Of a DNA stretch of 64,000 bases, positions 2,860 through 59,451 are shown one piece after another. Both the position numbers and the translations under genes were made by a program. The notes under the pieces were generated by a model. It did not search any database. It saw only the letters and a program-made list of their open reading frames with translations, and was not told the DNA's origin. Position 1 is the stretch's first letter. Each line of letters opens with the position of its first letter. Source of the DNA: Salipiger sp. CCB-MM3. GTDB taxonomy: Bacteria; Pseudomonadota; Alphaproteobacteria; Rhodobacterales; Rhodobacteraceae. The DNA is taken from the NCBI RefSeq assembly GCF_001687105.1, contig NZ_CP014596.1:248001-312000 (forward strand), read 5' to 3'.

Positions 2860-2888
2860 TGACCCCATCGAGTGGTCCGGGTTAAATG

Positions 2889-4018: not shown

Positions 4019-4188
4019 TCCGTAGTCCTCCTGTTCGCCGAAATCCTATCGGATTTCAGGCTTCGTGGGTGGACCACTTCAAAGGGGCTGGCTCAGAAGC
4101 CTTCTGCCCCGTGCGTTACAACCACATGCTTGTAACACACGCGCTCGACCTGCCGCCGCTAACCGTATGATTTTTCAGGGGAATCTTA

Positions 4189-4208
4189 ATTGGCTGGGGC
4201 GGTAGGAT
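4189..4208 (+). repeat. Putative attL: 20-bp copy of the tRNA-Gln 3' end
   Basis: The 20 bases ATTGGCTGGGGCGGTAGGAT are identical, in the same orientation, to 59375-59394, where they form the acceptor-stem/CCA end of tRNA-Gln. Identity stops on both sides. Here there is no tRNA, only this fragment. This is the arrangement expected when an integrase recombines at the 3' end of a tRNA and the displaced end marks the far border. Confidence 0.82.
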
Positions 4209-38409: not shown

Positions 38410-41400
38410 TCATGCGTTGACCGTCAGGAATGCCTCCGCAAGCGCACGTTCGGTGACGAAGCGCATGGGGTGTCCATCCGCGATCTTGCCTCGGGCTGCC
38501 TCGATTTTCGTGCCGAAGTGCGTGGTCTTCCATGCTCGTGAGGCCGTGGTTGCCACGACGATGAAGTCGGTCTCGTCGGTCACGCTCGACTTCAGGACGG
38601 CACCGCGCCGGGTCAGCTCGGCGCCAATAAGAGACCGCGGCCCGATGCTCATCTTGCCGGTGAGCACGAAGGTCTTCCCATCGAAGGAAAGCTGGGCGGG
38701 ATCGGAAATCGGGTCTGTGGGTGCGATGACGCCCCCGATATTGGCCACACCAGTGTCCGCATGCCCGTCAGTGACGAGAGCCGCGATCCATTCGCGCAGC
38801 TCCTCTGCCTCCGCCTCGTCCAGCTCTGCATCCGCAAGTGCGCCGTCGACCGCCCAGCGCAGGGAAGCGAAGATCGGCGCCTCGGCCAGTACCGGCTCGG
38901 AGTGGAAGCGAGCGTGGATCTTGCGGGCCTCCTCGGAAGTGATCTGACCGTCGCATACGACCCCGGCGCAGAAGCCGAGGAAGGTGTTGACCAGATCCTT
39001 TTCGCTGTCTTTTTCCGGATCTCCGAGGCTTGCGGCGATGGTCTCGGCGTGGAGCTTGATGGCTTTCAGAACGTCGTCGCCGCAGGCGGCAAGCGCCAGG
39101 TTCAGTGCTTCGCCGATGGTATCCTCGCCGGTGAAGCCGAGGAAGGCATCAATCTCACATGCCTCGTTGATCATGGCTTCGATTTCACCCTCCTCGATGG
39201 CCTCGGAGGCTGCCACCCCTTCAAGGAAGCCGAGCCAGTAGAAGCCACGCTTGCGCAGTGTGGCCGAGCGGTTGAACCGGTCGAAGGCATGGCTTTCCCG
39301 ATGGGCTTCGAGCTTGGACATGGCTTGCTCGGCAAGGCTCGCACCTCCCGGGAAGGTGAAGTCGGCATCCCCGAAGAGGAGACCCTGGGGGCTCTTTGCG
39401 ACAGCGTCTTCCGCGGACTTACCGCGCCGCGCCGGCCTCTGGGACTTCTGACCCTCGAGCACCTCCTCCGCAAGAGCGACTGCCTCCTCTGCTTCCCAAT
39501 GAGCACGGGCGACCGAAGCTTCGATTTCGAGCCGGGCGCGCTCTGTTGCTTCAGCGCGTTCCTCGCGGCGCCGGATTTCATCGCTCTTGGCGCGCTCAAG
39601 CGCGGCGTGCAGCGCGTCGCGCAGACGCGCGATCTGACCTCGCGGATCGCGGAACCAGTCGGTCGACCAGATGCGATGGAAGTGCCAGCCAAGACCTTCG
39701 AGTACTTGCTGGCGAAGCCGGTCACGATCACGGCTGGAGCGCGAGCTGTGATAGGGCGCCCCGTCGCATTCGATCGCAAGGATGAAGCCATAGGGCCAGT
39801 CCGGGTGCCTCACGCCAATGTCGATCCGGAAGCCGGAGGCCCCGACTTGCGGTACGGCCTCGAAGCCGGCGGCCTCGACCTGCGAGATGACGAAGCTCTC
39901 AAACGGGCTGTCCGGCGTGCCGTGCTTGGCCCCCTCGCCCTCGATCTGGCCAATTTGGCCCGTCTTCGAGAACTCGAGCCAGGCGCGAAGCATTGCCACG
40001 CCCTTGGCCTTGCCGTCTGCCTGAATGTCGGTCGGCTTCATGGAGCTGTAGGTGACGATCTTCTCCTTGGCACGCGAGAAGAGAACGTTGAGGCGGCGGT
40101 GCCCGTGTGCGGAGTTCACCGGCCCGAAGCGCTGGTAGACCTTGCCGGATTCAGCCTCTGGGCCGTAGAGCGTGGAGATCATGATGACATCGCGCTCGTC
40201 GCCCTGAATGGTCTCGAGGTTCTTGACGAAGAACTCCTCGAGGCCGTCGTCCTTCTCGGCCCAGCGCTCGATGTAGGCCTCGACATGCGGATGGCGGGCG
40301 CGTTCGCGCTCGAACTCGCTGACGATGATTTCGGTTTGATCCTTGTTCATCGTCGCAAGTCCGAGCGAGCGGTCAGGGTGCTCGCGCATGTGCTCAATGG
40401 CACCTGCGACGATCGCCCGAGCCTCGGGGATATTGCGCCCCTTTCGATACTCGCCGGCCACTTCGACGAGCTCGACTCCCAGTTCGGCATCCCCATCACG
40501 GGCCGCCGGGAAGATGGTCAGCTTCTCGTCGTAGATCATCTTGTTGGAGATCGCGATGAGGTCAGGGTGACGCGAGCGGTAGTGCCAGCGCAGCTGGCGC
40601 ACCGGCGTGAAGCTGGTGTTGGCCATGTCGAGAATGCTCTCGCTGTCCGAGCGGATGTCTTCGTCCTCATCGGCCTCATCGAGAACCTTGGCGAAGAAGC
40701 TGGTCGGTGGGAGCTGCTTGGTGTCGCCGACGATGACAACCTGCTTGGCACGCATGATCGCACCGAGGGCGTTCTCGGGCGTCATCTGAGACGCCTCGTC
40801 GATGACCGCGAGATCGAAGGAGACCTTGCCATGGAGGTATTGCGCCACCGCAAGGGGAGACATCATCCAGCAGGGCTTGAGTTCGATCAGAGCCCGCCCT
40901 GCCCGTCCGGTGAGGTCTCGCACACCGATCCGGTTACGGCTCTTGCCGAGTTCGTGCCGAATGAGGCTCATCTGCGTGAAGGTGCCGACCTTCCCGGTGC
41001 CATTGCCGGCCGGCGGAAGACACTGGTCGATCAGCTCTTCGCGGATTGCTGCCCGGGAAAGCGTGGTCAGTTCACGGTCGATTTGGGCAATCTCGCTCCG
41101 CAGACGGTCGAGGTCAGCGCCGTCGCGTGCGTCGAGGACCCGGCCGAACTTGTCCTGCACATGATCCGTCAGGTTGCGTGCAAGGATGGCCTCGGTGATC
41201 TGGGGCAGCACAGCGCGATGCTCGCGGCCTTCGTCACTCTGGGCCCAGTCCGTCAGAACCTTGAGGCCGCGCTGCTCGAGGGCTGCAACGGCCCGGAGCA
41301 GGCGCGCACGCTCCACGAGACCCTCGGGCCGCGAGGTGGCTTCCTTGATGGCCCTCGTGCGCGGCGCCAGTGCCTTGAGACAGTCAAACTCATCGCCTTC

Positions 41401-44400
41401 CTCGGCGCAGTCCAGCGCCAGGTCGTTGGCGATCCAGAGCGCCGTGTCACAGAGATCGCTGCGCGTCCGGAAGAAGTCGTAGGCGAGGGTCTGGATGCCG
41501 TCGACGATATCCGCGGCATCTGCCTTGCGAAGAAGCTCGATGCCGGCCATCGGGTTCGGCAGCTTCGAGAGGTTGCGGGACACAAGGATGGCCACGCGGA
41601 TTTCGCGGGTGTCTTCGTAATTTCCAAGAAGCTCCGCCGCCCGCGAGCTTCGTGCCCGTTCTTCGGCTCTGGCCAGATCGGCGCGGGCGAACCTCGCGCG
41701 GTCGATCATCTCAGCATCGAGGACGCCGAGGCATTTGAAAGACAGACAGAAGGAGGTCGCAGCACGATGATCTTCGCGCAGCTCTGCGATGCGTTCTTCA
41801 GTCTCGGTAATGTCCCTTGCATGCGACGACAGGGTGCGCGCAGGCATCGCCTCCGCATCCGCGAAGGCGTGAAGGCTGTCGAGGTTGCCTGTCTCGAGCG
41901 CATAGCGCAGGCGCTCGTCCCCCTTGGAGATGCGGGCGACATTGTCGTGGAAGCTCGCCAGGGCCTCCAGAGCTGCGCCATCGGTTGTCATGCCGCTGAA
42001 GACATTTCCGAGCTCCGCTGCAAGCCGGGCATCGCCGGTGAAGGCGTCGCGCCTCTCGGCCCAGGCTGCATAGTCCCTGAGCGCCAGCACGGCGTCTCTG
42101 CGCTCGGCTTTCCTCTCTCCCCCAAGCGTGCCGCTGAAAAGGGTCCATGCTTCCTTGTAGGAACTGGAGAAGATGCGCAGGAAATTAGAGGTCTCGATGG
42201 TGACGGCAGCGGCCTTGAGTTTCTGCGTATCATGGTCACCGGCCCTGGGGAGGCGATTGCGCAGCCCCTGCAGGTCACTCTCGAGCTTTCGCAATGTCGT
42301 TGCCGCGCTGCGTGCCGAGGCGGGAATGGCGCGCGCATCGTCGGCGGTCCGGCGCTTGAGGATATTCTCGGGGGCGCGCAGAAGCATCTCGATGTCGAGC
42401 CGAATGTCGGCAAGCGTGGTGCCATCCTGCTCGGCAGTCTCAGCCCAGCGCGCGGGGAGAGCCACCGCAAGGTCAAGCTGCGTTTTGAGGGCCTCGCAGT
42501 TGGCTTCTACCTCGGCCATTGCCTGCGCGAGTTGAGAGGGGTCGATGCGCCCGCCGTTGCGTTCTGCAAAGTCGCCCGCTTCGCGGATGAGATCGTCAAC
42601 CCCGTCGGCGTCAGGCTCCTTCAGAGCTTCCTGAAGCGCGCCCTCGGCTGCAGTGGCCGACTCGCGCGCCTCGCATACTTCATGGGCTTCCTGCTGGAGA
42701 GATGGATCGAGCAGCGCCTCAGCGAGACCCGCATCGCAGTTGGGATTGCCGGCAATTGCCATGAGAGCCTGGGTGGTCAGCGCCTCGTCTGCTGCGATCA
42801 TGCCCTCGGGAAGGAAGGCCTTGAGGGCGCTTGCCGCCGTATCGGTGAGGAGTGCTTCGATATCCCCTGCGAGCTTGGCGAAGTCCCGAGACAGGTCCTC
42901 GGCCTCATCGTTGCGCAGCGGCGCCTTGCCGACTTCACGCCAGAAGGCGGCGATCTGGTCGGCGTCGTTGAGGCGGTCGACCACCATGCGGATGTCGCCG
43001 GCGATCTCCTCGCGCGTGTCCGCATTCATCAGCTCGGGCGCGACCATCTGAATGCGGCGAATTTCTCGCGGCAAGCCGTCGAGGAACTCCGCAGTCGCGA
43101 TCGTCCGGCCCAGGGCCTCATGCACGGTCTGACCGGTATCCCCGAGCTTGGTGCCAAGCATCTCAAGGTAAGACTGCATGTCACTGCGGCGCCGCACCAG
43201 GGCGTCGTGCCGCGCCTTGTGGGATTGCGCCGAACCGCTGGCCGGCGGCTCCATCTTCAATCTGTCGTCGAGACTCTGGAACACGGCGTCCCGGGAGCCG
43301 CGCCCTGCCTGGAGCGGCAGGATGAATTCGCCGAGGCCAGCCGCGTCGAGGCGGTTGCGAACCACGTCGAGGGCAGTGAGCTTCTCGGCGACGAAGAGGA
43401 CCTTCTTGCCGTCTGCCATGGCCGAAGCGATCAGGTTGACGATGGTCTGGCTCTTGCCGGACCCGGGAGGCCCCTCGATCGCGACGTTGTTGCCATTGGC
43501 GATATCGACAAGCGTCGAGAACTGGGAGGCGTCTGCATCCATGACCAGACGCGGAACGCGACGTTCGACCTCGGGGTCATCGGTATCATAGACATCCGCA
43601 TAGACCGCGCCGTCCCCACCCGCGGTGGCGAGCATCTTCTCGATGATCGGGCTTTCGGTCACCACGCTCTTCTCGGGATCGAGGTCGCGATACATGGCGA
43701 TCCGGGAAGACGGGAAGACCCCGACCAGCGCCTCGCGGCGCAGAGCCCAGTGCCATCCGGCGGGAGCCAGGTCCTGGATGGTCTCAAAGTAGCGCTCAAT
43801 GGACCCGCCCTCATAGGCAGGGAGGGCGAGGCCAAACTCGGCCTCGAGGGTTTGCGCCAGCGTGGTGTTGATCTCGAGTTCGTTCTCGCCACAGATGTGA
43901 TATTCGTTGCCGCCGGGCGTCTTCCTGCGGGACATCTTCACTTCGAGCAGAAGCAGTGGCGATTGCGCAGGGGCACGGGACGATCCTGGCTCATTCCATT
44001 CCAGGACACCGAATGCCGCGTGCAGCACGTTGACACCCGTCTCGCGCTCGAAGGAATGGCCTCGATCGTGCAGCGAGCGGCCAACCCTGTCCAGGCGGTC
44101 AGGCAGCAGCAAGGTCTGGATGTCCGCATCTTCGTGTCGACCGTCGTCATGCACGTCGTAGGGAAGCGGCAGGAGATAGTCCGGGGAGATGTTGTGCGCC
44201 CGCGCATGCGCGGCGAGAGACGGGTTTTCCGCTGTCTGTCTTTCCGGCAGGCCCAGCTCGTCGCGGACGCGGTCCTTCATCGCGCGCTCGAGATCGAGTT
44301 CCTTCTGCGCATAGTCGGGGTGAGCGGGGTCGAGTTCTGCCAAAGCTTCCAGGTAGAGCTCATCGGAGACCCGGGCGATCTCGACCATCTCGAGAAACTC

Positions 44401-44703
44401 GTCGGTGGCCTCGTCGGGAAGGGGTTTGTCGATAGAAGGCAATGGAACAAGCCGCATGGCACTTTGCGCGGCAAGGCGCCTTGCGAGCACGTCCGGAAGC
44501 TCGTCTACGAAGCGGATCAATGTCGAAGAGTTTTGCCGGAACGGAATTTGGATGAGCGGATTGCGCCTCGAGCTGTCGAGCAGCCTGACTCGAAGGTGCT
44601 CAACCCGGTCCCGGATCAGATCACGGATGCCCCGTCGTTCATCCTGCGGCTCAGACCCCTCGCCCTGCTGGGCAGAAAAATCGGGAAAACTCGTATCTTC
44701 CAT
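38410..44703 (-). CDS. DUF4011 SF1 helicase with Vsr-like nuclease, TerB-like and BRCT domains
   Basis: 2097 residues. Domains in order: DUF4011 (HLRVRLLDSSRRNPLIQIPF, about residue 30); first half of an SF1 helicase with GPPGSGKSQT (about 410); a long coiled-coil insertion; DEAS box VIDEASQM (about 1300), GDTKQLPP, RLNVLFSRAKE (about 1530); a Vsr/DUF559-like nuclease (FRIDIGVRHP ... IECDGAPYHSS ... RDRDRLRQ, about 1620-1700); a TerB-like acidic helical region (AGVVCDGQITSEEA, about 1914); and a C-terminal BRCT domain (GKTFVLTGKMS, about 2005). The first parts match the DUF4011-helicase-Vsr proteins described as antiphage HheA. The start at 44703 follows CAGGAG; the frame is open further upstream, but that part is IS remnant. 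It is bracketed by inverted IS fragments. Confidence 0.88.
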   Translation of the reverse strand: MEDTSFPDFSAQQGEGSEPQDERRGIRDLIRDRVEHLRVRLLDSSRRNPLIQIPFRQNSSTLIRFVDELPDVLARRLAAQSAMRLVPLPSIDKPLPDEATDEFLEMVEIARVSDELYLEALAELDPAHPDYAQKELDLERAMKDRVRDELGLPERQTAENPSLAAHARAHNISPDYLLPLPYDVHDDGRHEDADIQTLLLPDRLDRVGRSLHDRGHSFERETGVNVLHAAFGVLEWNEPGSSRAPAQSPLLLLEVKMSRRKTPGGNEYHICGENELEINTTLAQTLEAEFGLALPAYEGGSIERYFETIQDLAPAGWHWALRREALVGVFPSSRIAMYRDLDPEKSVVTESPIIEKMLATAGGDGAVYADVYDTDDPEVERRVPRLVMDADASQFSTLVDIANGNNVAIEGPPGSGKSQTIVNLIASAMADGKKVLFVAEKLTALDVVRNRLDAAGLGEFILPLQAGRGSRDAVFQSLDDRLKMEPPASGSAQSHKARHDALVRRRSDMQSYLEMLGTKLGDTGQTVHEALGRTIATAEFLDGLPREIRRIQMVAPELMNADTREEIAGDIRMVVDRLNDADQIAAFWREVGKAPLRNDEAEDLSRDFAKLAGDIEALLTDTAASALKAFLPEGMIAADEALTTQALMAIAGNPNCDAGLAEALLDPSLQQEAHEVCEARESATAAEGALQEALKEPDADGVDDLIREAGDFAERNGGRIDPSQLAQAMAEVEANCEALKTQLDLAVALPARWAETAEQDGTTLADIRLDIEMLLRAPENILKRRTADDARAIPASARSAATTLRKLESDLQGLRNRLPRAGDHDTQKLKAAAVTIETSNFLRIFSSSYKEAWTLFSGTLGGERKAERRDAVLALRDYAAWAERRDAFTGDARLAAELGNVFSGMTTDGAALEALASFHDNVARISKGDERLRYALETGNLDSLHAFADAEAMPARTLSSHARDITETEERIAELREDHRAATSFCLSFKCLGVLDAEMIDRARFARADLARAEERARSSRAAELLGNYEDTREIRVAILVSRNLSKLPNPMAGIELLRKADAADIVDGIQTLAYDFFRTRSDLCDTALWIANDLALDCAEEGDEFDCLKALAPRTRAIKEATSRPEGLVERARLLRAVAALEQRGLKVLTDWAQSDEGREHRAVLPQITEAILARNLTDHVQDKFGRVLDARDGADLDRLRSEIAQIDRELTTLSRAAIREELIDQCLPPAGNGTGKVGTFTQMSLIRHELGKSRNRIGVRDLTGRAGRALIELKPCWMMSPLAVAQYLHGKVSFDLAVIDEASQMTPENALGAIMRAKQVVIVGDTKQLPPTSFFAKVLDEADEDEDIRSDSESILDMANTSFTPVRQLRWHYRSRHPDLIAISNKMIYDEKLTIFPAARDGDAELGVELVEVAGEYRKGRNIPEARAIVAGAIEHMREHPDRSLGLATMNKDQTEIIVSEFERERARHPHVEAYIERWAEKDDGLEEFFVKNLETIQGDERDVIMISTLYGPEAESGKVYQRFGPVNSAHGHRRLNVLFSRAKEKIVTYSSMKPTDIQADGKAKGVAMLRAWLEFSKTGQIGQIEGEGAKHGTPDSPFESFVISQVEAAGFEAVPQVGASGFRIDIGVRHPDWPYGFILAIECDGAPYHSSRSSRDRDRLRQQVLEGLGWHFHRIWSTDWFRDPRGQIARLRDALHAALERAKSDEIRRREERAEATERARLEIEASVARAHWEAEEAVALAEEVLEGQKSQRPARRGKSAEDAVAKSPQGLLFGDADFTFPGGASLAEQAMSKLEAHRESHAFDRFNRSATLRKRGFYWLGFLEGVAASEAIEEGEIEAMINEACEIDAFLGFTGEDTIGEALNLALAACGDDVLKAIKLHAETIAASLGDPEKDSEKDLVNTFLGFCAGVVCDGQITSEEARKIHARFHSEPVLAEAPIFASLRWAVDGALADAELDEAEAEELREWIAALVTDGHADTGVANIGGVIAPTDPISDPAQLSFDGKTFVLTGKMSIGPRSLIGAELTRRGAVLKSSVTDETDFIVVATTASRAWKTTHFGTKIEAARGKIADGHPMRFVTERALAEAFLTVNA

Positions 44704-44829
44704 GAGGCAACTCCTGACAATCGCTATTTGCATATTGGCCATGAGCCCCAGCCACAAAGAAGAAATTCGCAGGAATCCAATATGAGGCTTGGGTGCGACC
44801 TTTCTCCCATAAGCAGTTAGCGGATTATT

Positions 44830-44970
44830 CGACCCGCCGTTGCGGGCTGTTGCCGCTGTGCCAAGCTCGGGAATCTGCTGCGGCGTCTGCAGGCGGAGCC
44901 TTGAGACGAGTGCGGCGAAGCCGGTCTTGTGGATGATGCACCTCCAGTAGGTCCGAAAGAGTGATATTAG
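44830..44970 (-). mobile_element. IS fragment B, inverted relative to fragment A
   Basis: Read leftward it matches fragment A: CTAATATCACTCTTTCGGAC, CACAAGACCGGCTTCGCC, ACGCCGCAGCAG, CCGAGCTTGGCA and CAACGGCGGGTC occur in the same order, with about 30 extra bases that fragment A lacks. Only the transposase N-terminus is present. It lies just upstream of the DUF4011 gene start, so the remaining DNA between 44704 and 45157 is largely this remnant plus spacer. Confidence 0.72.
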
Positions 44971-45157
44971 TCGTACCCGATGGAAGCTGGGCGTCAGACA
45001 TTGATCCCGCATCCTATAGTGAAGCGGTCAAATCGCCTCTCGAGGCCAAACTGCCTTTGCTCGGCTACGCCCACACTGCGAGTGCATTCGGCTGATGTCA
45101 GCCCTAAGCTGCCGCTTGATCAATCGCGCCGCGGACCTTAATCTTGCTCGGGGTGGT

Positions 45158-46420
45158 TCAATCAGAGCCAGTAGGTTTAACCCTTCTTCGTCCTCTCCGA
45201 GGCTTGTTCTTTCGCTTTTGCACAGGTTCTTTGGCGAGAGTGACGCCCGCAGATGGTGTATTGCCTCGCGCAACCTTAGTCTTTTTGGTAGCGGACGCTC
45301 CGCGTCTTGGCTGCACCACTGAAGGTTTTCTAGCGGGCGAGAGCTGTCTAGGAGGGCCCTTTCTCTCCTGGTGTTGATACACCGGAGCCGCGCGAAACTC
45401 CGATATAGGGAATATCACCTCAAAGGCAGTGTCCTGAAATGCACCCTTGTTTGTGTTGGTCACTTCACCGAATTGCCTGCACCTGATTTCCCCATGAAAT
45501 CTGGCAACCAAAGACTTGGCTAGAAAGAGCCCATATCCGGTGCCTCCGGAATCCAGCAATCTAGCAGAAGCACTTCGGAACCCCTTCTCAAATATTCGAG
45601 GCAGTTCGTTCTCTGACATAACCGGTCCGAGAGATGTGATCGAAATAGATACATGTTCTTTAGACTCATCAACCCGAACGCCGATGTTGTGATTTAGTGG
45701 CGAGTACTTTAGGGCGTTATCAATTAAGATGTACGCAATGATCTCGGCGCAATCCGGCCCGCGAACAAGGCTGTGAGATGACCCTGAGATTGCCAGTTCG
45801 ATATTTTTCAGTCTGCATCCAGGCTGAAAGCTTTTCACGACTTTGTCAAACCTTCTGTAGACAGGTATATTTGAATCCTCTAGCTCAACGCCGCGACTCT
45901 CAGTGAAGTCAAGAATGTCAGTTCTTATTCCAAGCATGGCTTGAGCTGCGAGAGTGTTTTCTATTCTAATCTCCGCTTCACCGCTATCTCCATCAAAGAT
46001 CGCCTTCTTTGTCGCGACTGCATTCTGATATATTGAGGTTGAGAACCTCCTTAGGTCGTGAATTAATAGGGAAATCTCATCCTTGATGCGGTCACGGTTC
46101 AGCCTCTCACCGTCAACGAGGCTCTCTACGTAGCTCTCTATTTCTTTCTTGGAGAAAGGATGCTTCTCTCCAAGTCCAGCTAAAGGTTTGTCTCCATTCG
46201 GCAGCAAACCCACAAACCTAATGAGCCCAAATTCGGCGCTTTTATGAACAAACATGCTATAGTTGTAGTCAATCTTGTACCATCCCGGCTTCGTTTTTTG
46301 CGCGTATGCTCTTATCTTTCCAGAGCCTCCAAGGTCGGGGTTGAGCCTAAAGAGAAGCCCGTCAGAAAATTCGTAATCGTCAGGTTGACCAGATACAGAA
46401 GGAAACACAAACATACTCAC
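45158..46420 (-). CDS. Soluble histidine kinase
   Basis: 420 residues without membrane segments. After an uncharacterised N-terminal sensor region come a dimerisation helix with the candidate phospho-His (SLLIHDLRRFS, about residue 121), an N-box (IDNALKYSP, about 238), and a G-box (TGYGLFLAKSLVARFHG, about 297), i.e. a complete GHKL ATPase. A basic, disordered tail of about 75 residues (KKTKVARG, KRKNKPRRGRRRVK) could bind nucleic acid. It starts 4 bp after the response regulator stop. GC content is lower than its neighbours, implying separate acquisition. The partner is clearly the adjacent receiver protein. The signal is unknown. Confidence 0.85.
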   Translation of the reverse strand: MSMFVFPSVSGQPDDYEFSDGLLFRLNPDLGGSGKIRAYAQKTKPGWYKIDYNYSMFVHKSAEFGLIRFVGLLPNGDKPLAGLGEKHPFSKKEIESYVESLVDGERLNRDRIKDEISLLIHDLRRFSTSIYQNAVATKKAIFDGDSGEAEIRIENTLAAQAMLGIRTDILDFTESRGVELEDSNIPVYRRFDKVVKSFQPGCRLKNIELAISGSSHSLVRGPDCAEIIAYILIDNALKYSPLNHNIGVRVDESKEHVSISITSLGPVMSENELPRIFEKGFRSASARLLDSGGTGYGLFLAKSLVARFHGEIRCRQFGEVTNTNKGAFQDTAFEVIFPISEFRAAPVYQHQERKGPPRQLSPARKPSVVQPRRGASATKKTKVARGNTPSAGVTLAKEPVQKRKNKPRRGRRRVKPTGSD

Positions 46421-46424
46421 CTAC

Positions 46425-47123
46425 TCAAGCTAGGGCGGCAAATATCGCGGATGATGCGAGATTCAGGATAATGGTCTTTGCCGCAGAGGAGAAATTGTCG
46501 CCATTTATCACCGCCCGCATTTGACTAAGGTCAGGTTTGGCTTTGGTCACGGATTGCACATAAGCGTCCTCAAGTATAAGAATTGATCGGGTATCCACAT
46601 CCTCGGCGACCATAGCGGCTCGCGTTCTTTGCCAAACGATCTTTGGGTCTGTTGCTCGACTTATAAGCTCATCAAGCCTCTCAACCCAAGTTTCTATATC
46701 TGAGTCCTTCTTGATGAAGGAGTCAGCGTATTGTTTTGCCTTTTGTGCCTGCGTAGAGTTCGCACTTGAGCCCGAGTACGCGGCAATATATTTGGATGGA
46801 TAGTTTCTGCGTATCTCGCGAATTAAAGACGCCCCCTGAGAGTCTGCGTCGAAAAACATCCCGACATTCATAAGATCACACAATATTACGGGGTAGATGT
46901 CGATCTCATTGAGCTTCTTGACATCACCTACTTCCGATATGTCGTATCCGAAGTTTCGCAAATTTACCCCGGCCTCAAATGGTTGATCGTCGATAACCGC
47001 TATCTTTACTAACCTTCTCTTCTCCTGCTGAATTGGAGGGCGGAACCCCTGAAAATCCCTACCATCAATATCCCCGCAAACACGGTATGAGTTTATCGCC
47101 ATTCGGCGCGCTTTTTCCAGCAT
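46425..47123 (-). CDS. Response regulator with unrecognised C-terminal output
   Basis: 232 residues. A receiver domain (about residues 38-145) has its acidic pair in VIDDQPF, phospho-acceptor Asp in VILCDLMN (about 83), Ser in AAYSGSS and Lys in SFIKKDSD, so it should be active. The C-terminal 90 residues contain no helix-turn-helix and end in a hydrophobic stretch (IILNLASSAIFAALA) that could insert in or touch a membrane. It is transcribed just before the kinase gene. In a region of candidate defence genes this resembles phosphorelay-type immunity such as Detocs, but no Detocs gene is recognised. Low GC matches the kinase. Confidence 0.8.
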   Translation of the reverse strand: MLEKARRMAINSYRVCGDIDGRDFQGFRPPIQQEKRRLVKIAVIDDQPFEAGVNLRNFGYDISEVGDVKKLNEIDIYPVILCDLMNVGMFFDADSQGASLIREIRRNYPSKYIAAYSGSSANSTQAQKAKQYADSFIKKDSDIETWVERLDELISRATDPKIVWQRTRAAMVAEDVDTRSILILEDAYVQSVTKAKPDLSQMRAVINGDNFSSAAKTIILNLASSAIFAALA

Positions 47124-47612: not shown

Positions 47613-50600
47613 CTAAGGCGCCACCGGCGGCGCGAGGCGGATCAGAAGCTGCTCCCTTGTTGTCTCGTCGAACTCGGCTGTCTCCAGGATGGTAAGAAGA
47701 TCGGACTGCCGCGGCTGCCCGAAGGCGAGCCGGTAAAGGGCCGTTGTCCGGAGGAGCCACATGGCACGTTGTGCTTCACGGGATAGTGGCGGCAGAGGCA
47801 GCACGGTTTCAATTTCGACTGGGTCCGGAGCATCGCCGGCATAAAGCCAATGCGGTCTCAGGCCGAGCCTGGCTTCGCCGCGGTCATTCACCTCGATCTC
47901 TGCCGAGGCGATCATGGCCGGCCAGGCGGGACCTTCCGAATCGCGAGCAGCCTTGGAGTGATTGGTTGCTATGTTCAGCCGCACCGCATGGTTCAGGAAG
48001 CGCTGGACTCGCCCCTCGCGCTGCTCCATGTCGACCGGGTTGCCAGGAAGATTCCAGTGCCAGAGCCGGTGGCAATAGAGATGGAAATCCAGCCCCTCTT
48101 GACCGACAGAGGTCGAGGCCAGGACAAACGGCCTAAACGGCGAGTTGAAGGAATCCCGGAGGGTGTCAATGCGCACACCGCCGCCTTCCTGGTCCCGGGA
48201 TGCATTGGCCGCAAAGCGGGCCGCGAGATGCGAAGGCATGCTGCGCCGCGAGCGTCCCTCGTCATGGAAAGGGTTGTGCAGAGTGATCGGCGCGGTGCGC
48301 AAACCGATGGCCTCGCGCATACGGCGAGCCAGGCCCCGATGCGCGGGCTCGCCTTCTTCCTGGCCCTCTACCAGCTTTCCGCCGGTTAGATGGAAGACAT
48401 ATTCGTCGAGGACGGCCTGAAGATCATGTTCGGCACAGTAATCAAGCGCGCGAGACCAGGCGCCTTCGCTGCCCTCGGAGAGAAGCAGCGGCCGTACTTC
48501 GCGGTGATTGAAGAGTGTGAGGAAGCCCATCGCAACCTGCGCCGCCATGAAAGCGCGTTGAGGAGCCGGCAGATCGGCATAGCGATTGAGAGCACGTAAT
48601 AGGCAGGTCGCCGGGCTGCCCAGGGCGACACGTGCGAGGAAGCGGATGGTTGCAGAGCTTGCGGCGGCCTCAGGCAACTCCGGACTGCCAGCGACGAAAG
48701 CGTCAAGGCAGGCGGCGGCGGCACCAGTCGCCTCGCGACTGGAGCCCGCCCTAAGGCCCTCCCGGATCGCGCGCGCCCAGCCCGGCTCACACCGGTCGAG
48801 CCGGGCGAGAACTTCCCATGCAACTCTCCCTTTTGCCTCAGGAAGCGATATTTCTTCAAGTGCGCCGGCAATCAGCTTCTCGGCCTCGGCCTGCATCTCC
48901 ACGGCCGATATCGCCCCATGCTCACGCCAGATCCGCAACGGGTCGACCACGCGGGCCAGGAAGGCCGAGGGATATAGCAATGTCATGACATGCATGCTGG
49001 CGCCGATCTGCTCGGCGTTCGTGCGCAGGCGCAGGAGCGGCACCTCTCGCTTCTTCGGCGCACCTCTCAAGCCGCGCTCGCGGCGCAGCCTGCGCTCTGC
49101 CTCGTAGGAGACAAGCGCCGCCACCGCTTCGGGCACCATCTGCCAATCCGAGAAGATCAGCGTCTTTGTCAGGCTTTCGCCCCCCTGCAGATAGGGTAGC
49201 GAGGGTGGCAACCATAGCCTGCGATGAAGGTCAGTCTGATCGAGCGTCTCCTCGATCAGAGCTCGCATCCGGCCGTTGCCAGGAGGGATGCGCTCGAAGC
49301 GTTGCCGTTTGTGCTCGGAAACCATGGCAGGCTTTCCGGTCGATGCCAGCTTGGCGCGTGCCGGAAATGCCCTGATCTTCTTCGCAAGATCGTAGTCGCC
49401 CATGAAACTGAAGAGATAAGGGGCAGATTTCCAGTATTCGACTGCGCCATGCCCCCGGATCGCCTTGGCGACTTGATGTACGGCCTTGGCCTGTCGCAGG
49501 TCATCTGCCTGGACAGGGACAGACAGGATCCTACGCCGGATTCCTGCGTCCCCGCTGTCGCCCGCCACCCGCTCGTGTCGGCTCATTACCTTGCGCAGCC
49601 GGCTCTCGACGGCTGTACGCGCCTCGGCGGCTTGCGGCGTGTGGCCTTGGGCGAAATCCCGAAGGTGATCACGAAAGCGGCGCATCTCTTCACGCAGGGC
49701 TTCGGCAGCGGCCGGCCCCTCATCGCCATAAAGCACCGAGATGGTCTCAAGAAAATCGGCATGATGATCCCCAGCCGTCGGATCATCGCCATTGAGTGTC
49801 AGCATTCGGTAGGGCGTCGCCGAGAGAAACAAAACGCGGGCCCCGGCAGCCTCTGCCTGAAGGAACGTCCGCATCAGGGCCTGCGCTTCGCTGTCGCCCT
49901 CGGCAAAGAGATTTCGGAAGCGTTGGAACTCGTCAAAGATCACCAGCTTCGGGCGCAGCGAGGTCAGGGCATGTCGTGCCAGCCGCTGCAGCAACTCCTG
50001 GACAATCGGGCGACGCACGTCGCTATTGCCGAGGTCGGCGGTCCGGATGCGCTCTTCAATACCGTCGGCGAGCAGCAGTTCCGCGGTGGCTTCGCAGTCG
50101 ATCGTCTCGGAAAGTTTTGCCGCAGCCACATATCCCGTCCAGTGCTTCTGCGCTGGATGTCGCAGCAGATTGTCGAGCCGATCGCCTTCGATGCGGTCCT
50201 GCAGCAGCTTGCGGATCAGCGCCCGTTCACGGGCAACACCGAGCCCGCCAGACTTGTCAAAACTCGTCGCCGGGGTGAGTGCGATGAAATTGGCCGCGTC
50301 GTCACGCAGCCGGGTCGTGGCGTCGCACAGCAGGGTAAGGCGGGTTGCGCGAACCTCGGCATCGCCCAGGACATTAAGCAGCCGCAGGTTCTGCCGGGCA
50401 ATTGCGCTGTTCGAGCAGACATAAATGATATCGGCGCGCTCGCCCTCGGGCAGGCGCGACAGGACATGTGCCACCACACCCTGCGCGACGCGGGTCTTGC
50501 CCAGCCCGACCTCGTCGGCCACGAGGAAGCGCGGTGCGCCGACATCAAAGCGGCACATCACGTAGTCGACGGTGGCGCGCTGGAAAGGTTTCAGCCCCGA

Positions 50601-50627
50601 AAGTAGCTGTTGCGGATCGAAGCTCAC
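47613..50627 (-). CDS. SF2 (SNF2/HepA-like) helicase of a DUF6361-PLD-helicase operon
   Basis: 1004 residues. Motif I ADEVGLGKTRVA (about residue 37), motif II VIFDEFQRFRN (about 229), motif III LFLSATPYRM (about 270), then a long helical insertion, and motifs V-VI STSVGQEGLDFHLYCHRLWHWN and QREGRVQR (about 869), the set of a DNA translocase or helicase. DEFQ replaces the usual DEAH. Its start overlaps the PLD gene stop by four bases. Helicase plus PLD protein is a recurring antiphage theme (for example drmA/drmC in DISARM), but this exact trio is not one I can name. It is third and last in the operon. Confidence 0.86.
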   Translation of the reverse strand: MSFDPQQLLSGLKPFQRATVDYVMCRFDVGAPRFLVADEVGLGKTRVAQGVVAHVLSRLPEGERADIIYVCSNSAIARQNLRLLNVLGDAEVRATRLTLLCDATTRLRDDAANFIALTPATSFDKSGGLGVARERALIRKLLQDRIEGDRLDNLLRHPAQKHWTGYVAAAKLSETIDCEATAELLLADGIEERIRTADLGNSDVRRPIVQELLQRLARHALTSLRPKLVIFDEFQRFRNLFAEGDSEAQALMRTFLQAEAAGARVLFLSATPYRMLTLNGDDPTAGDHHADFLETISVLYGDEGPAAAEALREEMRRFRDHLRDFAQGHTPQAAEARTAVESRLRKVMSRHERVAGDSGDAGIRRRILSVPVQADDLRQAKAVHQVAKAIRGHGAVEYWKSAPYLFSFMGDYDLAKKIRAFPARAKLASTGKPAMVSEHKRQRFERIPPGNGRMRALIEETLDQTDLHRRLWLPPSLPYLQGGESLTKTLIFSDWQMVPEAVAALVSYEAERRLRRERGLRGAPKKREVPLLRLRTNAEQIGASMHVMTLLYPSAFLARVVDPLRIWREHGAISAVEMQAEAEKLIAGALEEISLPEAKGRVAWEVLARLDRCEPGWARAIREGLRAGSSREATGAAAACLDAFVAGSPELPEAAASSATIRFLARVALGSPATCLLRALNRYADLPAPQRAFMAAQVAMGFLTLFNHREVRPLLLSEGSEGAWSRALDYCAEHDLQAVLDEYVFHLTGGKLVEGQEEGEPAHRGLARRMREAIGLRTAPITLHNPFHDEGRSRRSMPSHLAARFAANASRDQEGGGVRIDTLRDSFNSPFRPFVLASTSVGQEGLDFHLYCHRLWHWNLPGNPVDMEQREGRVQRFLNHAVRLNIATNHSKAARDSEGPAWPAMIASAEIEVNDRGEARLGLRPHWLYAGDAPDPVEIETVLPLPPLSREAQRAMWLLRTTALYRLAFGQPRQSDLLTILETAEFDETTREQLLIRLAPPVAP

Positions 50628-52402
50628 GCCGCCTTCCCCAATGCCGTTTTGAATTCACCCCAGAGGTTTAGAAACTCCCGCATCACCTCGCCACCCAGGT
50701 CGCGCCCCATCAGCCCGACCACGCGATCGAGATCGCGCAACCGCGCCGGGCCGTCGTCATCGAGATAGGCCGCGAGCATGGTCTCGAGAACCGGAGGTAC
50801 CGGTCGGGTGCCTCTCGCGCTGCCGCCGCCTTCGCTGGCAGCCCTAATCATTCCCTCGATATCTGGGCGCTGTTCAAGCATGGCCGCGACAAAGCTCAAG
50901 AACTGCTCGGGGGTCCGAACGATGTCCGACAACAGCGCCTTTAACCGCGCATCCCCCTCGGGAAGCCCCTCGGCCTCGAGATTGGTCACGAAGCCTGCGC
51001 GCTCGCCATCAAGGCCGCACAGATCGAATTGCACGAAACTGGTCGCGTCGGCGAGCCGCACCGAGCCGAGATCCCAAGGACCAGCGCCCTGAAGTAAGAC
51101 ACCGTTATCCCGCGTCACCAACTGCGCACGGATCTCTGCAATGTCAGGCAAATCGGGCAAGACGAGGGACAAGTTAAGAGAGAGGCGATCCTCCAGCGGA
51201 GCAAAACTAAGCTTTGCGCCAGCGGCGATGATCGCGTGGCGTGCGGCCCGAACGGCATCGTTGAAAATCTTTGCCGCAATCTCATCCTCGCGCGGGGCCC
51301 GCGGCATCCAGTCCTGCAGCAAGGGGCCGATACCTCCAACACCAAGGATGCCGGCGCCGTCGAGCCCGATTCCGCCGATATTGGTCGTCCGCCCGCGCAG
51401 ACTGGCGAAGACCTCGATGTTACGCGGGCCATTCAGCCCCAGCCCGGCAGAAGTGGCATTGCCCGAACCAAGCGTTATCACTGTATCTTCACCCTGTTCG
51501 AGGACATAGAGCTTTGCATGCAAACCGGCGCGGTCCTCGGCCGAGAACGCAGCCTCTGGGTCGGGTTCCGGCAGGCCGTGATCGGCCAGCATCAGGCTGC
51601 GGGGCAAGGGGCTCTTCAGCGCGGCCAGCCAGTCATCGCAGGCGACAAGGGCCTGGATTCGATCGCGCCCCAGCGCGCCGAGCCCAGCATCGTCACAGAA
51701 GGGCGAGATCACGGCGAGTTGCCCCCTGCCCGGTCGCCAGAGGTCCCTTGCCTGCGCCAGCGGATGGTGAGCATGGAAAAGCGGTGGCGAGAAACCTGGG
51801 ACGCGCTCCCATCGCACATGCTGCAAGCCGTCGCGCAGGCCGCGGAGATGGGAGTTCTTCTCGACCGGCAACCAGTCGATCAGCCCGACCAAGGGAGCGT
51901 TGGCGCGTTGGTGCTCGGCCTTCTCCTCTCCCTCTAGCCGCAGCGCCACATCCCATGAGCGGTCCCTTGTCAGATTTCGCGACATCATGATCAGGCGCTG
52001 CCGCATCGGCCCACCGTCTTCGGGCGCAAAGCGCAGGAGCCATAACTTGGGATGGAAACTCGCGCCCTTGGGGGGACTGACCTCCCTGACGAGCCCCTCG
52101 AGCAGGCTGACCAGCGCCGTGCGTTTTCCAGCGGGAGGATGGATATTCCCGGCCTCGACACAAACCGTCACCCGATCCTCGAGGCGGCGCATGGCGGCAA
52201 GCGCGGCTAAGGGGCTTGCCAACAGCTCCTCGCGCTGCACACCGCCGCGAAGAGCGAGCGACACCGGCACCGTCAGTGCGGTAAGGAAATCCATCGAGAA
52301 GGTCGTGCCGAGCGCGGCCTCAAGGCGGTATCCCTCGGGGGGCAGCAGCGCCTCGCCAAAATCGACCCGTTGTGCGGGGGCGAATACCGTATCTGCTTTC
52401 AC
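50624..52402 (-). CDS. PLD-family nuclease-like protein
   Basis: 592 residues with two HKD-type motifs: FHPKLWLLRF followed by SRNLTRDRSWD (about residues 117-150), and LHAKLYVLEQG followed by GSGNATSAGLGLNG (about 294-325). Two motifs in one chain form a single active site in PLD nucleases. No signal peptide, so it acts in the cytoplasm. It overlaps the helicase downstream and the DUF6361 gene upstream by four bases each, so the three products are made in a fixed ratio and probably form one complex. DNA or RNA cleavage is inferred. Confidence 0.85.
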   Translation of the reverse strand: MKADTVFAPAQRVDFGEALLPPEGYRLEAALGTTFSMDFLTALTVPVSLALRGGVQREELLASPLAALAAMRRLEDRVTVCVEAGNIHPPAGKRTALVSLLEGLVREVSPPKGASFHPKLWLLRFAPEDGGPMRQRLIMMSRNLTRDRSWDVALRLEGEEKAEHQRANAPLVGLIDWLPVEKNSHLRGLRDGLQHVRWERVPGFSPPLFHAHHPLAQARDLWRPGRGQLAVISPFCDDAGLGALGRDRIQALVACDDWLAALKSPLPRSLMLADHGLPEPDPEAAFSAEDRAGLHAKLYVLEQGEDTVITLGSGNATSAGLGLNGPRNIEVFASLRGRTTNIGGIGLDGAGILGVGGIGPLLQDWMPRAPREDEIAAKIFNDAVRAARHAIIAAGAKLSFAPLEDRLSLNLSLVLPDLPDIAEIRAQLVTRDNGVLLQGAGPWDLGSVRLADATSFVQFDLCGLDGERAGFVTNLEAEGLPEGDARLKALLSDIVRTPEQFLSFVAAMLEQRPDIEGMIRAASEGGGSARGTRPVPPVLETMLAAYLDDDGPARLRDLDRVVGLMGRDLGGEVMREFLNLWGEFKTALGKAA

Positions 52403-53541
52403 GCCGCTGCCGCCATGTCATCGAGATAGCGGCGCACGACACCCCAGCGATACTGAATTTGTCCCGCCCCTGAACTTCCATTCCAGCGATAGTCCTGCGG
52501 GACGAAACGCAACCGGGCACGGCTGCCTTTGGTTTCGATCTCACGCCGGGTGATCAGCGCCCGGGCAGCGGGGCCTTCAGGCTCGCCCATCACCCCGATC
52601 CAGTCATCGATGAAGCGCAGAGTTGGCTGCTTCGGATTAAAGCCCACCAACGGTCCCTGCTTGAGAAGCGGCGCAATCAGATCGCGGGCCGAGGTCGGCA
52701 GACCAAACTGCTCTCGTTGTCGCCATTTCCGGAGTTCATTCGCATGGACCTCCTGTGCATCATGGCTGAAATGCTCGGCCAGCATCAGGTTGTAAAGAAG
52801 CGCCGCGCCATGCATCGTTTCCGCAAACGCCAGTGCATGATTGAGGACTTGCTGCATCGACGGTGGCAGGTCGATCTCTGCCAGCGACCCCAGGTCCCGA
52901 TGTTCCTTCAGCTTCCCGGCACGGGCCATGAGATAGCCCAACAGCGTCCCGCCGTGACGGATAGAAGAACAGCGGTCCGAAATCCAATCCGCCTCTTCGC
53001 ACGTGAGAGCAAATCCCCGCGAGTCGCTCGCGGCGATGCTCGGGCACTCCTCCCAGCAAGCCTCCCCCTCGGCCATTCGATCAAGCACCTCACCGATCCC
53101 GGCGCGAGCGAATGCCGGGCTGCGGACGCCCCAGAGCCCCAAGCCGCCCCAATAGACCGCACTCGGCATTCGCTTCAGCTTCTCTCCTGCCTCCGAGCCG
53201 ATCAGCAACCACGTATCAGCCTCGGGCAGCGACTGCAGGCGCGTGATCAACGCCGCCTCTCCCTCGCGCAGCCGCGTCTTGCGATCACCCCGCTTGAGGT
53301 CAAGCTCCCGAAAGATCTGCGGCAGGAAGAGGAAATAGCGCAGACGGGTCTGCACCGTGCTCGTGCCCGGGAAGAGCAGATCAGAGAAACCGTCACGGAT
53401 AGAACCCAAGCCTAGCTCATCGCGAGCCTCGCTGTCGCTCAATGCCCCGATGAGAGTCTGGACGGCTTCCGCCTCGGCCTTTCCGAAGGAGACCCAACCC
53501 AATGCAGACAAATCGAAGAACCCCTTATGCGCCACAGTCAT
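52399..53541 (-). CDS. DUF6361 family protein
   Basis: 380 residues with the family hallmark SEARDELGLGSIRDGFSDLLF and PGTSTVQTRLRYFLFLP near residues 35-75, then a Trp-rich middle (YWGGLGLWGVRSP). The fold and activity are not known to me. As first gene of the operon it may be the sensor or specificity component for the PLD nuclease and helicase. The start ATG is at 53541. Upstream lies a 600-bp gap that should hold the operon promoter. Confidence 0.85.
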   Translation of the reverse strand: MTVAHKGFFDLSALGWVSFGKAEAEAVQTLIGALSDSEARDELGLGSIRDGFSDLLFPGTSTVQTRLRYFLFLPQIFRELDLKRGDRKTRLREGEAALITRLQSLPEADTWLLIGSEAGEKLKRMPSAVYWGGLGLWGVRSPAFARAGIGEVLDRMAEGEACWEECPSIAASDSRGFALTCEEADWISDRCSSIRHGGTLLGYLMARAGKLKEHRDLGSLAEIDLPPSMQQVLNHALAFAETMHGAALLYNLMLAEHFSHDAQEVHANELRKWRQREQFGLPTSARDLIAPLLKQGPLVGFNPKQPTLRFIDDWIGVMGEPEGPAARALITRREIETKGSRARLRFVPQDYRWNGSSGAGQIQYRWGVVRRYLDDMAAAA

Positions 53542-56529: not shown

Positions 56530-59376
56530 TCAGCGCCCGTATTGCGAGCGCACAGACTTGCTGCGGCGCCGCTCGATGGTCAGCGGTCTCGCGGGGGACC
56601 GTGCCTCCTCAAGAGGCACGGGAGAGACATCTCCGGCGAAAGTCAGGCAGTCGCGCAGGCGCAAGGCAGCCGCGGGAGGAATGCGCCCCAGGCGCTTTTG
56701 CAGGACTGCGTGGCAATCTTCGGAGACAAGAACGCGACGCCGGAGATTGAAGCGTGTCGGAATGTCCACTCGGGCTGTTGCGAGTTCCGCGGGCTGCGAC
56801 ACCGCAAGCTCATAGGGTGCCGGGCTCGCGGCGGTCAGGGGACCGCCCCAGGCCAGATCGAGATGAGTCCGTCCGGCCAGGGTGCGGACATTCACAACAA
56901 GGCAGGGCCTCGGTGCGGGGGCCACTGTCCCGGGGCGCGAGGATGGGAAGGCGCACACAACAATATCACCCGCAGCCAGGGTCCCTCGATCTGCGTCCGG
57001 TGACATGTCCGCCGCAACATTGATATCTGTCGCGGCTTCCACGGCGGCATGCTCGGTCGGAGCGACCGGCCCGGAAACGGCCTCGGGAAACTGGCTGGGC
57101 GGCTCCTCTGCCAGGATCAGCAGGTGCTCGAGCGCTGACGTGGCCTCTTCGCTGGCCGGGAACGTGATCGCGTGGTCCCGCGCCAGAGTGACAATCTTTT
57201 TTGCGATCTCGGCAGCTTGAAGCGGCGCGCAGTCGTTCCAAGGGTAACCGCTCGGCGCCTTCCGACCGGCAACAGCAGCCTCGAAGAGCACCTCATCCGT
57301 CTCTGAATCTCGGAGTTGGAGCGCAGCAAGGTCGCCGGCATCTGTCAACGCAACGTCAACATCCAGCGACGGCAACAGCAGTGTCGATGTCCCTGTGATG
57401 ACAGGGAACGCATGCCGCCGATCACGGCCCACGACGAACCCGTAGTCGACCGAATCGAGGATCTTGCGCAATTCCAGGAGGCCATGGTCCGAGTAGTACC
57501 TGTCGACCGTGGTGCCCTCGAGGTGCCCCAGGATTTTCTGCCGGGTGCCAGTATCTGTTCCAGCGTGCATGAGCTTTGAGGACAAGGTTCGGCGCATCGC
57601 GTAGAGGTCTTCCCGGTTGCAAAGCAATTTCAGGTGCTTCAGCAGCGTCCGAAACCGGTCGCCGAAAATCTGCGAGCGACGGCCGTGATTCTTGTCCGGC
57701 TGAATTTCCGGGAACAGCCAGGTGTCTCCCGCTTGCAGTTTCGAAACGACCCACTCACGAAATCCAAGGTTCAGCAAGATCTTCGGGACCGGCAGGATGC
57801 GTCGGGACTGTTCGGTCTTCAGGATGATGTCTTCTTCCTCACCGAAGAAAATGCAGAGCACGCCGTCGCGCCGGACGACATCGCGCACCGCCGCTTGAAG
57901 GATTTCCTCAGGTCGCACCCCCATGGTCAACATGATGAGCGGGACCCAATAAATGGCGTCGCGCACAATATGCCGATCGCTCGCAGTTGCTTTGCGCCAG
58001 CGCTGCTTCTTCGACTTGCTCCCAAGATAGATTGGCGAGCCGAGAAGCTGAGCAACATGCTCCAGAGACCAGGACAAGCGCCGCTTCGGTCGCGAGACCC
58101 GCTTTGGCAGGCCGCAGGCCGTCTTCTGGTCCTTGTGCCACTTGTAGAGACGCCGCTTGAGTTGAGCGTGCGAAGGGATGACCCGATGGCCGTCGTCAAG
58201 GTCGCGACCGACACGTGACCTGCCGAGAGCCGCGCGAAAGATGCGGTTAAGCATGTCGCGGTGCACAAAGAGATATCCGTCGGTCAATCGTGGCGTGAGC
58301 TCGAGCACCAGCCTGCGACGCTTGTCCGGCACCGAAAGGTGCTCGAGGCTCATGATCTCGGCCAGAACATGAGCATCCTTCTCGTCCGCCTGGCGAGTCT
58401 CTTCGAGCGGGCAGAGATCGCGCCCGACCTGATCGGGTCCATTTCGGCCGTGCCCTTTGCCCCACCCTTTCGGCAACATCCATACGGCATGGAGGAACGT
58501 GAAGGATTGCTCGAGTGAAATTGAGGCGACCGGGATATCGCCGAAAAAGGCGATCGCAAGCTTACCCATCACGCGGATCTTGCTCTCGGTGTCGCGCGGG
58601 GCTTCATCGCATGCCTTCTCGACGGCGTCCGAGACGCGCATCGGGGGGTTGAAAGCTTCGGGCGTGGCGGCCAGATCGTGGCGGAGAATCAGGTGACGTC
58701 CAACATGAAGAGGGTCTGAAAAGTCCCGCTCAACTTCTGTCGAGAGGTCATGGAGTTGGCGCATGAGCGCGAGGACCTGCCGCGCGATCTGCGGCGTGAC
58801 CAAGGCGGATGCCTCGATCCCATTCTCTGCAGCGACACCCGCGGCAAAATGCTCCGCCATGGCCCAGTCCCGATTGCGCTGCGCCGCGACGATCTGGCGT
58901 GTCTCGGCGGCAATGCCATCAAGATAGGTGTCGGAATTGGCGATCGGCATTTCGCTTTCCTGCCGCGCGACCAGCCCTGCGATGGCACGTCGCACAAGCT
59001 CCCGCAGCATCGCCTTGACCTGGACGTCGTTTGCCGACGCGTTCTGAATTTGTTCGAGCACTCTTTTCTCTCCTGCCTCGATGGCGGACAGCAGGTCGGC
59101 AGACCGTTTGACCGCTTCGGAGAGAATTTGTGTGCGCAGGGAAACCGACAGAAACGCGGGCGCCCCCGCCTGACGCAAGGTTATCGACCAGCGCCTGCGG
59201 AAGTAGAAGACCCCGTTTCTGCGGACGAGATGCAGCCCCCATTTCCTGCCTGGTTTGCGCGATCCACGCCCCGATCCATGTGAACCAGTTTGTGAACCAC
59301 CGCGTCGTGGAGACGGGAGGCTGGCCGCCTGATCAGCGGCTATCCCATTGTAAGGTATGGAATTTGTGGATGTCAT
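56530..59376 (-). CDS. Island integrase: tyrosine recombinase with C-terminal MazF/PemK-like domain
   Basis: 948 residues. An N-terminal arm-type region (RRNGVFYFRRRWS) precedes the core-binding and catalytic domains: Arg in GVRPEEILQAA (about residue 484), LYAMRRTLSSKL (about 592, Tyr where His is usual) and LGHLEGTTVDRYY with the nucleophile Tyr (about 622). The last 150 residues (GDIVVCAFPS at about 802; RPCLVVNVR; RFNLRRRVLVSED; LGRIPP) look like the PemK/MazF fold seen as free proteins in Rhodobacterales. The start ATG at 59376 directly follows the CCA of tRNA-Gln, so it may be read from the tRNA promoter. It is the probable enzyme for attL/attR recombination. Confidence 0.82.
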   Translation of the reverse strand: MTSTNSIPYNGIAADQAASLPSPRRGGSQTGSHGSGRGSRKPGRKWGLHLVRRNGVFYFRRRWSITLRQAGAPAFLSVSLRTQILSEAVKRSADLLSAIEAGEKRVLEQIQNASANDVQVKAMLRELVRRAIAGLVARQESEMPIANSDTYLDGIAAETRQIVAAQRNRDWAMAEHFAAGVAAENGIEASALVTPQIARQVLALMRQLHDLSTEVERDFSDPLHVGRHLILRHDLAATPEAFNPPMRVSDAVEKACDEAPRDTESKIRVMGKLAIAFFGDIPVASISLEQSFTFLHAVWMLPKGWGKGHGRNGPDQVGRDLCPLEETRQADEKDAHVLAEIMSLEHLSVPDKRRRLVLELTPRLTDGYLFVHRDMLNRIFRAALGRSRVGRDLDDGHRVIPSHAQLKRRLYKWHKDQKTACGLPKRVSRPKRRLSWSLEHVAQLLGSPIYLGSKSKKQRWRKATASDRHIVRDAIYWVPLIMLTMGVRPEEILQAAVRDVVRRDGVLCIFFGEEEDIILKTEQSRRILPVPKILLNLGFREWVVSKLQAGDTWLFPEIQPDKNHGRRSQIFGDRFRTLLKHLKLLCNREDLYAMRRTLSSKLMHAGTDTGTRQKILGHLEGTTVDRYYSDHGLLELRKILDSVDYGFVVGRDRRHAFPVITGTSTLLLPSLDVDVALTDAGDLAALQLRDSETDEVLFEAAVAGRKAPSGYPWNDCAPLQAAEIAKKIVTLARDHAITFPASEEATSALEHLLILAEEPPSQFPEAVSGPVAPTEHAAVEAATDINVAADMSPDADRGTLAAGDIVVCAFPSSRPGTVAPAPRPCLVVNVRTLAGRTHLDLAWGGPLTAASPAPYELAVSQPAELATARVDIPTRFNLRRRVLVSEDCHAVLQKRLGRIPPAAALRLRDCLTFAGDVSPVPLEEARSPARPLTIERRRSKSVRSQYGR

Positions 59377-59394
59377 TGGCTGGGGCGGTAGGAT
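59375..59394 (+). repeat. Putative attR: tRNA-Gln 3' end
   Basis: Identical 20 bases to 4189-4208. Here they belong to the functional tRNA-Gln (acceptor stem, CCA) and extend two bases into the integrase start codon. Confidence 0.82.
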
Positions 59395-59451
59395 TCGAAC
59401 CTACGGTGCGCGGTACCAAAAACCGGTGCCTTACCACTTGGCTACGCCCCA
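59377..59451 (-). tRNA. tRNA-Gln(TTG)
   Basis: A 75-base cloverleaf: 5' TGGGGCG pairs with CGCCCCA, D-arm AGCC...GGTAA, anticodon loop with TTG, T-loop GGTTCGAATCC, discriminator G and an encoded CCA. It is the target of the island, and its 3' end is kept intact by the element. Confidence 0.95.

Follow-up and report, generated by a model that had tools for sequence, protein, structure and literature searches.

An Azaca (ZacABC) anti-phage locus on a probable integrative island of Salipiger sp. CCB-MM3

Three adjacent genes in a 64,000-nucleotide stretch of Salipiger sp. CCB-MM3 (contig NZ_CP014596.1, positions 248,001 to 312,000; hereafter the window, whose own coordinates are used below) were analyzed, and we regard it as almost beyond doubt that they constitute the Azaca (ZacABC) anti-phage system. 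All three lie on the minus strand: zacA (52399..53541, 380 amino acids), zacB, which encodes a phospholipase D (PLD)-superfamily nuclease (50624..52402, 592 amino acids, GTG start), and zacC, which encodes a superfamily 2 (SF2) helicase or translocase (47613..50627, 1004 amino acids, GTG start). Comparison with the PADLOC profiles revealed a near-full-length match for each protein (ZacA, E-value = 1.4e-94, profile positions 3-393 of 396; ZacB, E-value = 3.3e-135, positions 2-583 of 586; ZacC, E-value = 4.7e-283, positions 5-1016 of 1019). The genes, their order and the extent of the profile matches are all those of Azaca, and we found no difference in anything that defines the system. The locus is a real, apparently intact and mobile Azaca, of a kind already known and not new. 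For the Azaca identity and the inferred mechanism taken jointly, we estimate a probability of about 0.8.

A preliminary description, made from the sequence alone, had presented the trio as an unnamed defence-like system for which no named system with the same three genes could be given. Azaca is such a system, and the ZacABC profile matches together with the papers naming Azaca overturn that view, while the same matches support the description of the trio as an immune effector. The trio looked unnamed because Pfam shows only DUF6361 (PF19888, E-value = 5.1e-48, over nearly the full length of ZacA), helicase families below the cut-off for ZacC and no family at all for ZacB (E-value threshold 0.01). 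Naming the trio Azaca removes a false novelty. Azaca reportedly protects against phage (a result ascribed to Millman and colleagues in 2022), and we take the gene names ZacA and ZacB to belong to it, the passages of the papers linking only ZacC. Azaca appears among the systems taken from Millman et al. 2022 (reference 7 in PMC10121019), it is listed among defence systems with ZacC as its superfamily 1/superfamily 2 helicase (PMC12278908), a PLD-like domain has been ascribed to it (PMC10952713), and one table places it under nucleic acid degradation (PMC10855318). It has also been annotated by PADLOC in a Halococcus strain, with 2 of 382 archaeal genomes cited (PMC13321033). Our literature search returned no paper under the name ZacABC and none under DUF6361.

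The three genes were found where the preliminary description had placed them, with a four-base overlap at both junctions (zacA stop/zacB start and zacB stop/zacC start), the shared letters being GTGA at both and not ATGA as it had read them. These overlaps make a fixed-ratio complex plausible. The start of zacA is ambiguous between ATG at 53541 and TTG at 53511, the latter matching the position where relatives begin. Promoter and terminator scans gave counts near those of shuffled controls, and no inverted repeats were found in the region searched for them (53400-54200).

Analysis of related loci revealed that the trio is sporadic in distribution and constant in order. The DUF6361 profile matched 7 of 292 genomes of the order (own genome included), 5 of 398 genomes of the phylum (own genome and one repeat included) and none of 14 control genomes. 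The 9 distinct matches outside the own genome were refetched with their flanks, and zacB and then zacC came next in order in every case. Another 13 loci were obtained from ZacB searches, so that zacB is present there by selection; these comprised 3 of 3 genome contigs, 9 plasmid records picked for diversity from 40 with ZacB-like matches, and one phage-labelled record. All 9 checked plasmid records carried the trio. The preliminary description had proposed a search for a conserved three-gene order, and the order A-B-C was indeed found in all 22 fetched loci as well as in the window, so the order is not due to chance. Irregularities were confined to a split zacC (locus L004), a split zacA (L020) and a zacA short at its start (L025). 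With start codons chosen by script, coding regions overlapped at the A-B junction in 21 of 23 loci and at the B-C junction in 20; one apparent gap each is explained by the split gene in L020 and by that in L004. The loci span Alpha-, Beta- and Gammaproteobacteria, Bacteroidota and one haloarchaeal plasmid.

Pairwise identities of ZacA, ZacB and ZacC are strongly correlated with each other (r = 0.974-0.990 for 20 of the 23 loci, with L004, L020 and L025 left out), a level reached by none of 2000 permutations. The three genes are under purifying selection, the ratios of nonsynonymous to synonymous substitution (dN/dS) against the closest relative, L002, being 0.119, 0.108 and 0.091; against L003 and L004 the ratios were 0.10-0.18, with synonymous change saturated. 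The identity correlation and the dN/dS values together support inheritance of zacABC as one functional unit. The window copy falls in a compact subgroup with L002-L004 (Paracoccus and Roseovarius), in which ZacB is 586-599 amino acids long, compared with 605-622 in the other 19 loci. Identity to the window ZacB is 58-87% inside this subgroup and 22-36% outside it.

Three loci (L032, L033 and L036) stand apart, with ZacC scores of about 580 bits compared with 989-1476 bits elsewhere, all from one profile that was built without these three. Their ZacB proteins are 23-24% identical to that of the window, and those of L022-L024 are equally low. The three loci are possibly an Azaca subtype. Search sensitivity varied with the query: a single ZacB sequence matched 4 of the 398 genomes of the phylum and missed a divergent copy (G471) that the DUF6361 profile had found. 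A distant blastn search for ZacB in Escherichia coli genomes gave no match, which is weak evidence because the comparison was made at the DNA level. Among IMG/VR viral contigs, no relative was obtained with ZacC alone, with the ZacB or ZacA alignment, or with the ZacB of L024; the ZacC alignment gave 27 loci, which were not used because their similarity was limited to some 45-140 residues in the helicase part. The phage-labelled locus, L024 (MT835621.1, 10779-17056), is a complete, unannotated ZacABC-like trio in an unverified faecal record named Bacteriophage sp.

The alignment of 23 ZacB sequences revealed two HxK motifs in one chain (H117-P-K119 and H295-A-K297), each followed by a downstream Asn, and H117, K119, N143, H295, K297, N315 and E330 are invariant in all 23. 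The Asp of the HKD motif is not conserved among them. The preliminary description had called ZacB a double-HKD nuclease, of which the two HxK motifs with their Asn hold and the motif Asp does not. The Pfam family PLDc_2 is matched by 8 of the 23 proteins, the window ZacB not being among them. When the ZacB profile was compared with the PDB, the best matches were SauUSI (7clg, E-value = 3.5e-4) and BfiI (2c1l, E-value = 7.7e-4), both at the second half-site (HAK...GSxN...NxE), where the HxK...N...NxE half-site of these enzymes aligns with that of ZacB. NgoAVII followed more weakly (4rct, E-value = 0.24), and an unrelated small protein (1y0n, E-value = 0.02) ranks between BfiI and NgoAVII. BfiI residues H105, K107, N125 and E136, which we take to be catalytic, align opposite ZacB H295, K297, N315 and E330 (BfiI numbers counted from the printed alignment). 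A TDP1-like (HKN) enzyme was also considered, because the Asp is missing. The BfiI-type reading was preferred because the PLD proteins among the PDB matches were SauUSI, BfiI and NgoAVII.

In ZacC, the motifs EVGLGKT, DEFQ, SATP, GQEGLDF and QREGR are invariant in all 22 sequences compared, the split copy of L004 being left out. In ZacA, 20 columns are invariant in an alignment of 21 sequences, and the residues concerned include FPG57-59, YW130-131, E334, K338 and R365. These alignments supply mutation targets for Azaca, namely the seven invariant candidate catalytic residues of ZacB, the ZacC motifs and the ZacA residues.

The data show gene identity, order and linkage, the conserved motifs, purifying selection and the mobile context; the assembly of a complex, the nuclease activity, the target and the trigger are what we infer. 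By analogy, the mechanism that we hold most likely, at even odds, is that of a PLD nuclease complex driven by ATP, in which ZacA would serve as partner or sensor. ZacC would translocate along DNA with ATP, and the two PLD half-sites in the ZacB chain would form a single BfiI-type phosphodiesterase site that cuts invading DNA. ZacB might be restrained and then set free when ZacC binds DNA that is aberrant or foreign, and ZacA (DUF6361) may be an obligatory partner that senses or licenses the reaction. Several points weigh against this mechanism. The SauUSI and BfiI matches are weak and confined to about 50-60 residues of the second half-site; when the ZacB sequence of one relative was used alone, it gave no PDB match at an E-value of 0.1; the window ZacB lacks a Pfam match; ZacA has no credible relative in the PDB (best E-value = 0.18); and Azaca is listed among systems of unknown mechanism in one review and one survey (PMC10482375, PMC12926258).

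There are precedents for a PLD nuclease combined with an SF2 ATPase. CglI and NgoAVII require both their PLD and their SF2 subunit, together with ATP hydrolysis (PMC5737866, PMC4267653), and in SauUSI the PLD nuclease and the SF2 ATPase are fused (PMC7913695). The window trio likewise pairs a PLD nuclease with a separate SF2 ATPase. It differs from CglI and NgoAVII, which have three genes including a methyltransferase, a B3 DNA-binding domain and no DUF6361 (PMC4267653), and whose PLD site is built from two subunits (PMC4267653), while ZacB carries both half-sites in one chain. Unlike ZacABC, SauUSI is a single polypeptide with its own target-recognition domain (PMC7913695), and BfiI is ATP-independent (PMC4267653), unlike the mechanism proposed here. 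SF2 helicases are also common to DISARM, and ZacC is locally similar to DrmD; however, this similarity amounts to 48 bits over 55 residues, compared with 940 bits to the ZacC profile. Among the PADLOC matches of the trio there was none to DrmB, and the sole DrmA match was local, of 36 bits, in ZacC.

Two other modes of action are each considerably less probable than the proposed complex. One is abortive infection of the Hachiman kind, in which the helicase would sense damaged or replicating DNA and free the nuclease, host and phage DNA would be destroyed and the cell would die. Hachiman couples a helicase to a nuclease and senses the integrity of the genome (PMC12278908). The conserved trio contains no methyltransferase (this refers to the three genes and not to the entire island), so that protection of self DNA is not obvious. 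However, ZacB is a PLD protein, and the 24 PADLOC families matched by the window ZacC do not include HamB. We give a similarly low chance to a restriction-like enzyme with sequence or modification specificity in the style of CglI/NgoAVII or SauUSI, in which ZacA or part of ZacC would read the site. The shared pairing of PLD nuclease and SF2 ATPase favors it, but the same lack of a methyltransferase in the trio counts against it, as does the Pfam scan of the three window proteins and the 23 ZacB sequences (among relatives, it took in those of ZacB only), which gave no B3 or other target-recognition domain; for B3 on the nuclease, the threshold was an E-value of 0.01. A housekeeping DNA-repair module is very improbable: a helicase and a phosphodiesterase could process DNA ends and an AddAB-like pair often adjoins Azaca, but the sporadic distribution given above, the plasmid carriage, the probable island in the window and the defence genes near some relatives all speak against it.

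The AddAB-like pair, a PD-(D/E)XK nuclease and a UvrD helicase, lies immediately upstream of zacA in 6 of the 22 related loci (the pair at L018:689-6744, L026:727-6794, L027:752-6783, L028:4270-10001, L029:4270-9977 and L030:2270-7998). At the contig edge of L003, the end of a UvrD gene runs into zacA (L003:2-1114). Such genes are also close to Azaca in L023 (from annotation) and L036 (the UvrD part, at the end of the locus), so that the pair or part of one accompanies 9 of the 22 loci. The window has none, unlike L003 of the same subgroup, which has part of one. The L018 and L028 types are only 26-34% alike in the UvrD gene and show no detectable similarity in the nuclease, pointing to assembly on more than one occasion or to long divergence. 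The L018-type nuclease was found in 60 plasmid records (E-value of 1e-20 or better), of which 11 recur in the set of 40 with a ZacB match (compared by eye from both complete listings, which are biased to rhizobia and whose records are not independent events). In each of these 11 the nuclease lies within about 5 kb, one of them having a weak partial ZacB match only. Because no more than these 11 of the 60 nuclease plasmids also belong to the ZacB set, we rejected the idea that Azaca always requires the pair; it is frequent but separable. A more elaborate proposal, which we hold to be doubtful, is that Azaca acts as a PLD restriction machine powered by ATP and lacking a methylase, with DUF6361 as its non-self sensor, and that over some of its range it makes up a five-gene cassette with the AddAB-like pair, which would then degrade DNA after an initial cut.

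The window locus is probably cargo of an integrative island of about 55 kb in a tRNA gene. The integration site is tRNA-Gln(ttg), identified by ARAGORN at 59377..59451 on the minus strand, and an open frame for a tyrosine integrase begins at its 3' end (56530..59376, minus strand; Phage_integrase, E-value = 1.3e-9). A 20-base exact direct repeat, consisting of the tRNA 3' end and two further bases, is present at 59375..59394 and, with 20 of 20 bases identical, at 4189..4208, the latter probably marking the distal end of the island. All 20 genomes of the genus (own genome included) share the tRNA side. Six of the 19 relatives were inspected; in five, DNA similarity stops no more than two bases from the tRNA 3' end, and in the sixth it continues for about 65 bases past it. 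At the sites of the inspected relatives, the sequence that precedes 4189 in the window was not found, so the far end is placed by the repeat. Just beyond this distal copy (about 2855-4095) lies a repeated element, probably an insertion sequence, of which the same genome has at least 14 more copies that are 99-100% identical.

The genes nearest to Azaca on the island, all on the minus strand, are a giant PDC-S37/Hhe-like gene of uncertain start and a two-component-like pair. The giant gene (38410..45012) matches PDC-S37 with 1028 bits and Hhe with an E-value of 7.1e-208 in PADLOC. The pair consists of a histidine-kinase-type ATPase with weak resemblance to PDC-M43B (45158..46420; PADLOC, E-value = 6.8e-16; HATPase_c, E-value = 5.2e-15) and a response-regulator-like protein with weak resemblance to PDC-M43A (46425..47123; PADLOC, E-value = 4.2e-11; Pfam Response_reg, E-value = 0.0028, below the cut-off). 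Among the relatives, whose neighbours were scanned in part, restriction-modification or DISARM genes are near 3 of 22 loci: DISARM DrmA/DrmB in L034, type IIG/ISP-like methylase genes in L033 and, by annotation, type I restriction-modification genes in L022. The preliminary description had placed the trio in an island next to defence-type genes, which agrees with the probable tRNA-Gln island, the PDC-S37/Hhe-like and two weakly PDC-M43-like neighbours, the genes near these three relatives and the occurrence in 7 of 292 genomes. We describe this as an association of Azaca with defence genes and not as a measured enrichment.

Antisense to the PDC-S37/Hhe-like gene runs an open frame of 2019 amino acids (38761-44820, plus strand), probably a by-product of coding sequence with high G+C content. 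Two genes of 507 and 641 amino acids with a four-base overlap (31816-33339 and 33336-35261, minus strand) lie on the same island and have no Pfam or PADLOC match at an E-value of 0.001. At 25159-30765 on the plus strand, a protein of 1868 amino acids fuses an SF2 helicase (DEAD and Helicase_C, DpdF-like) to a UvrD-type superfamily 1 helicase.

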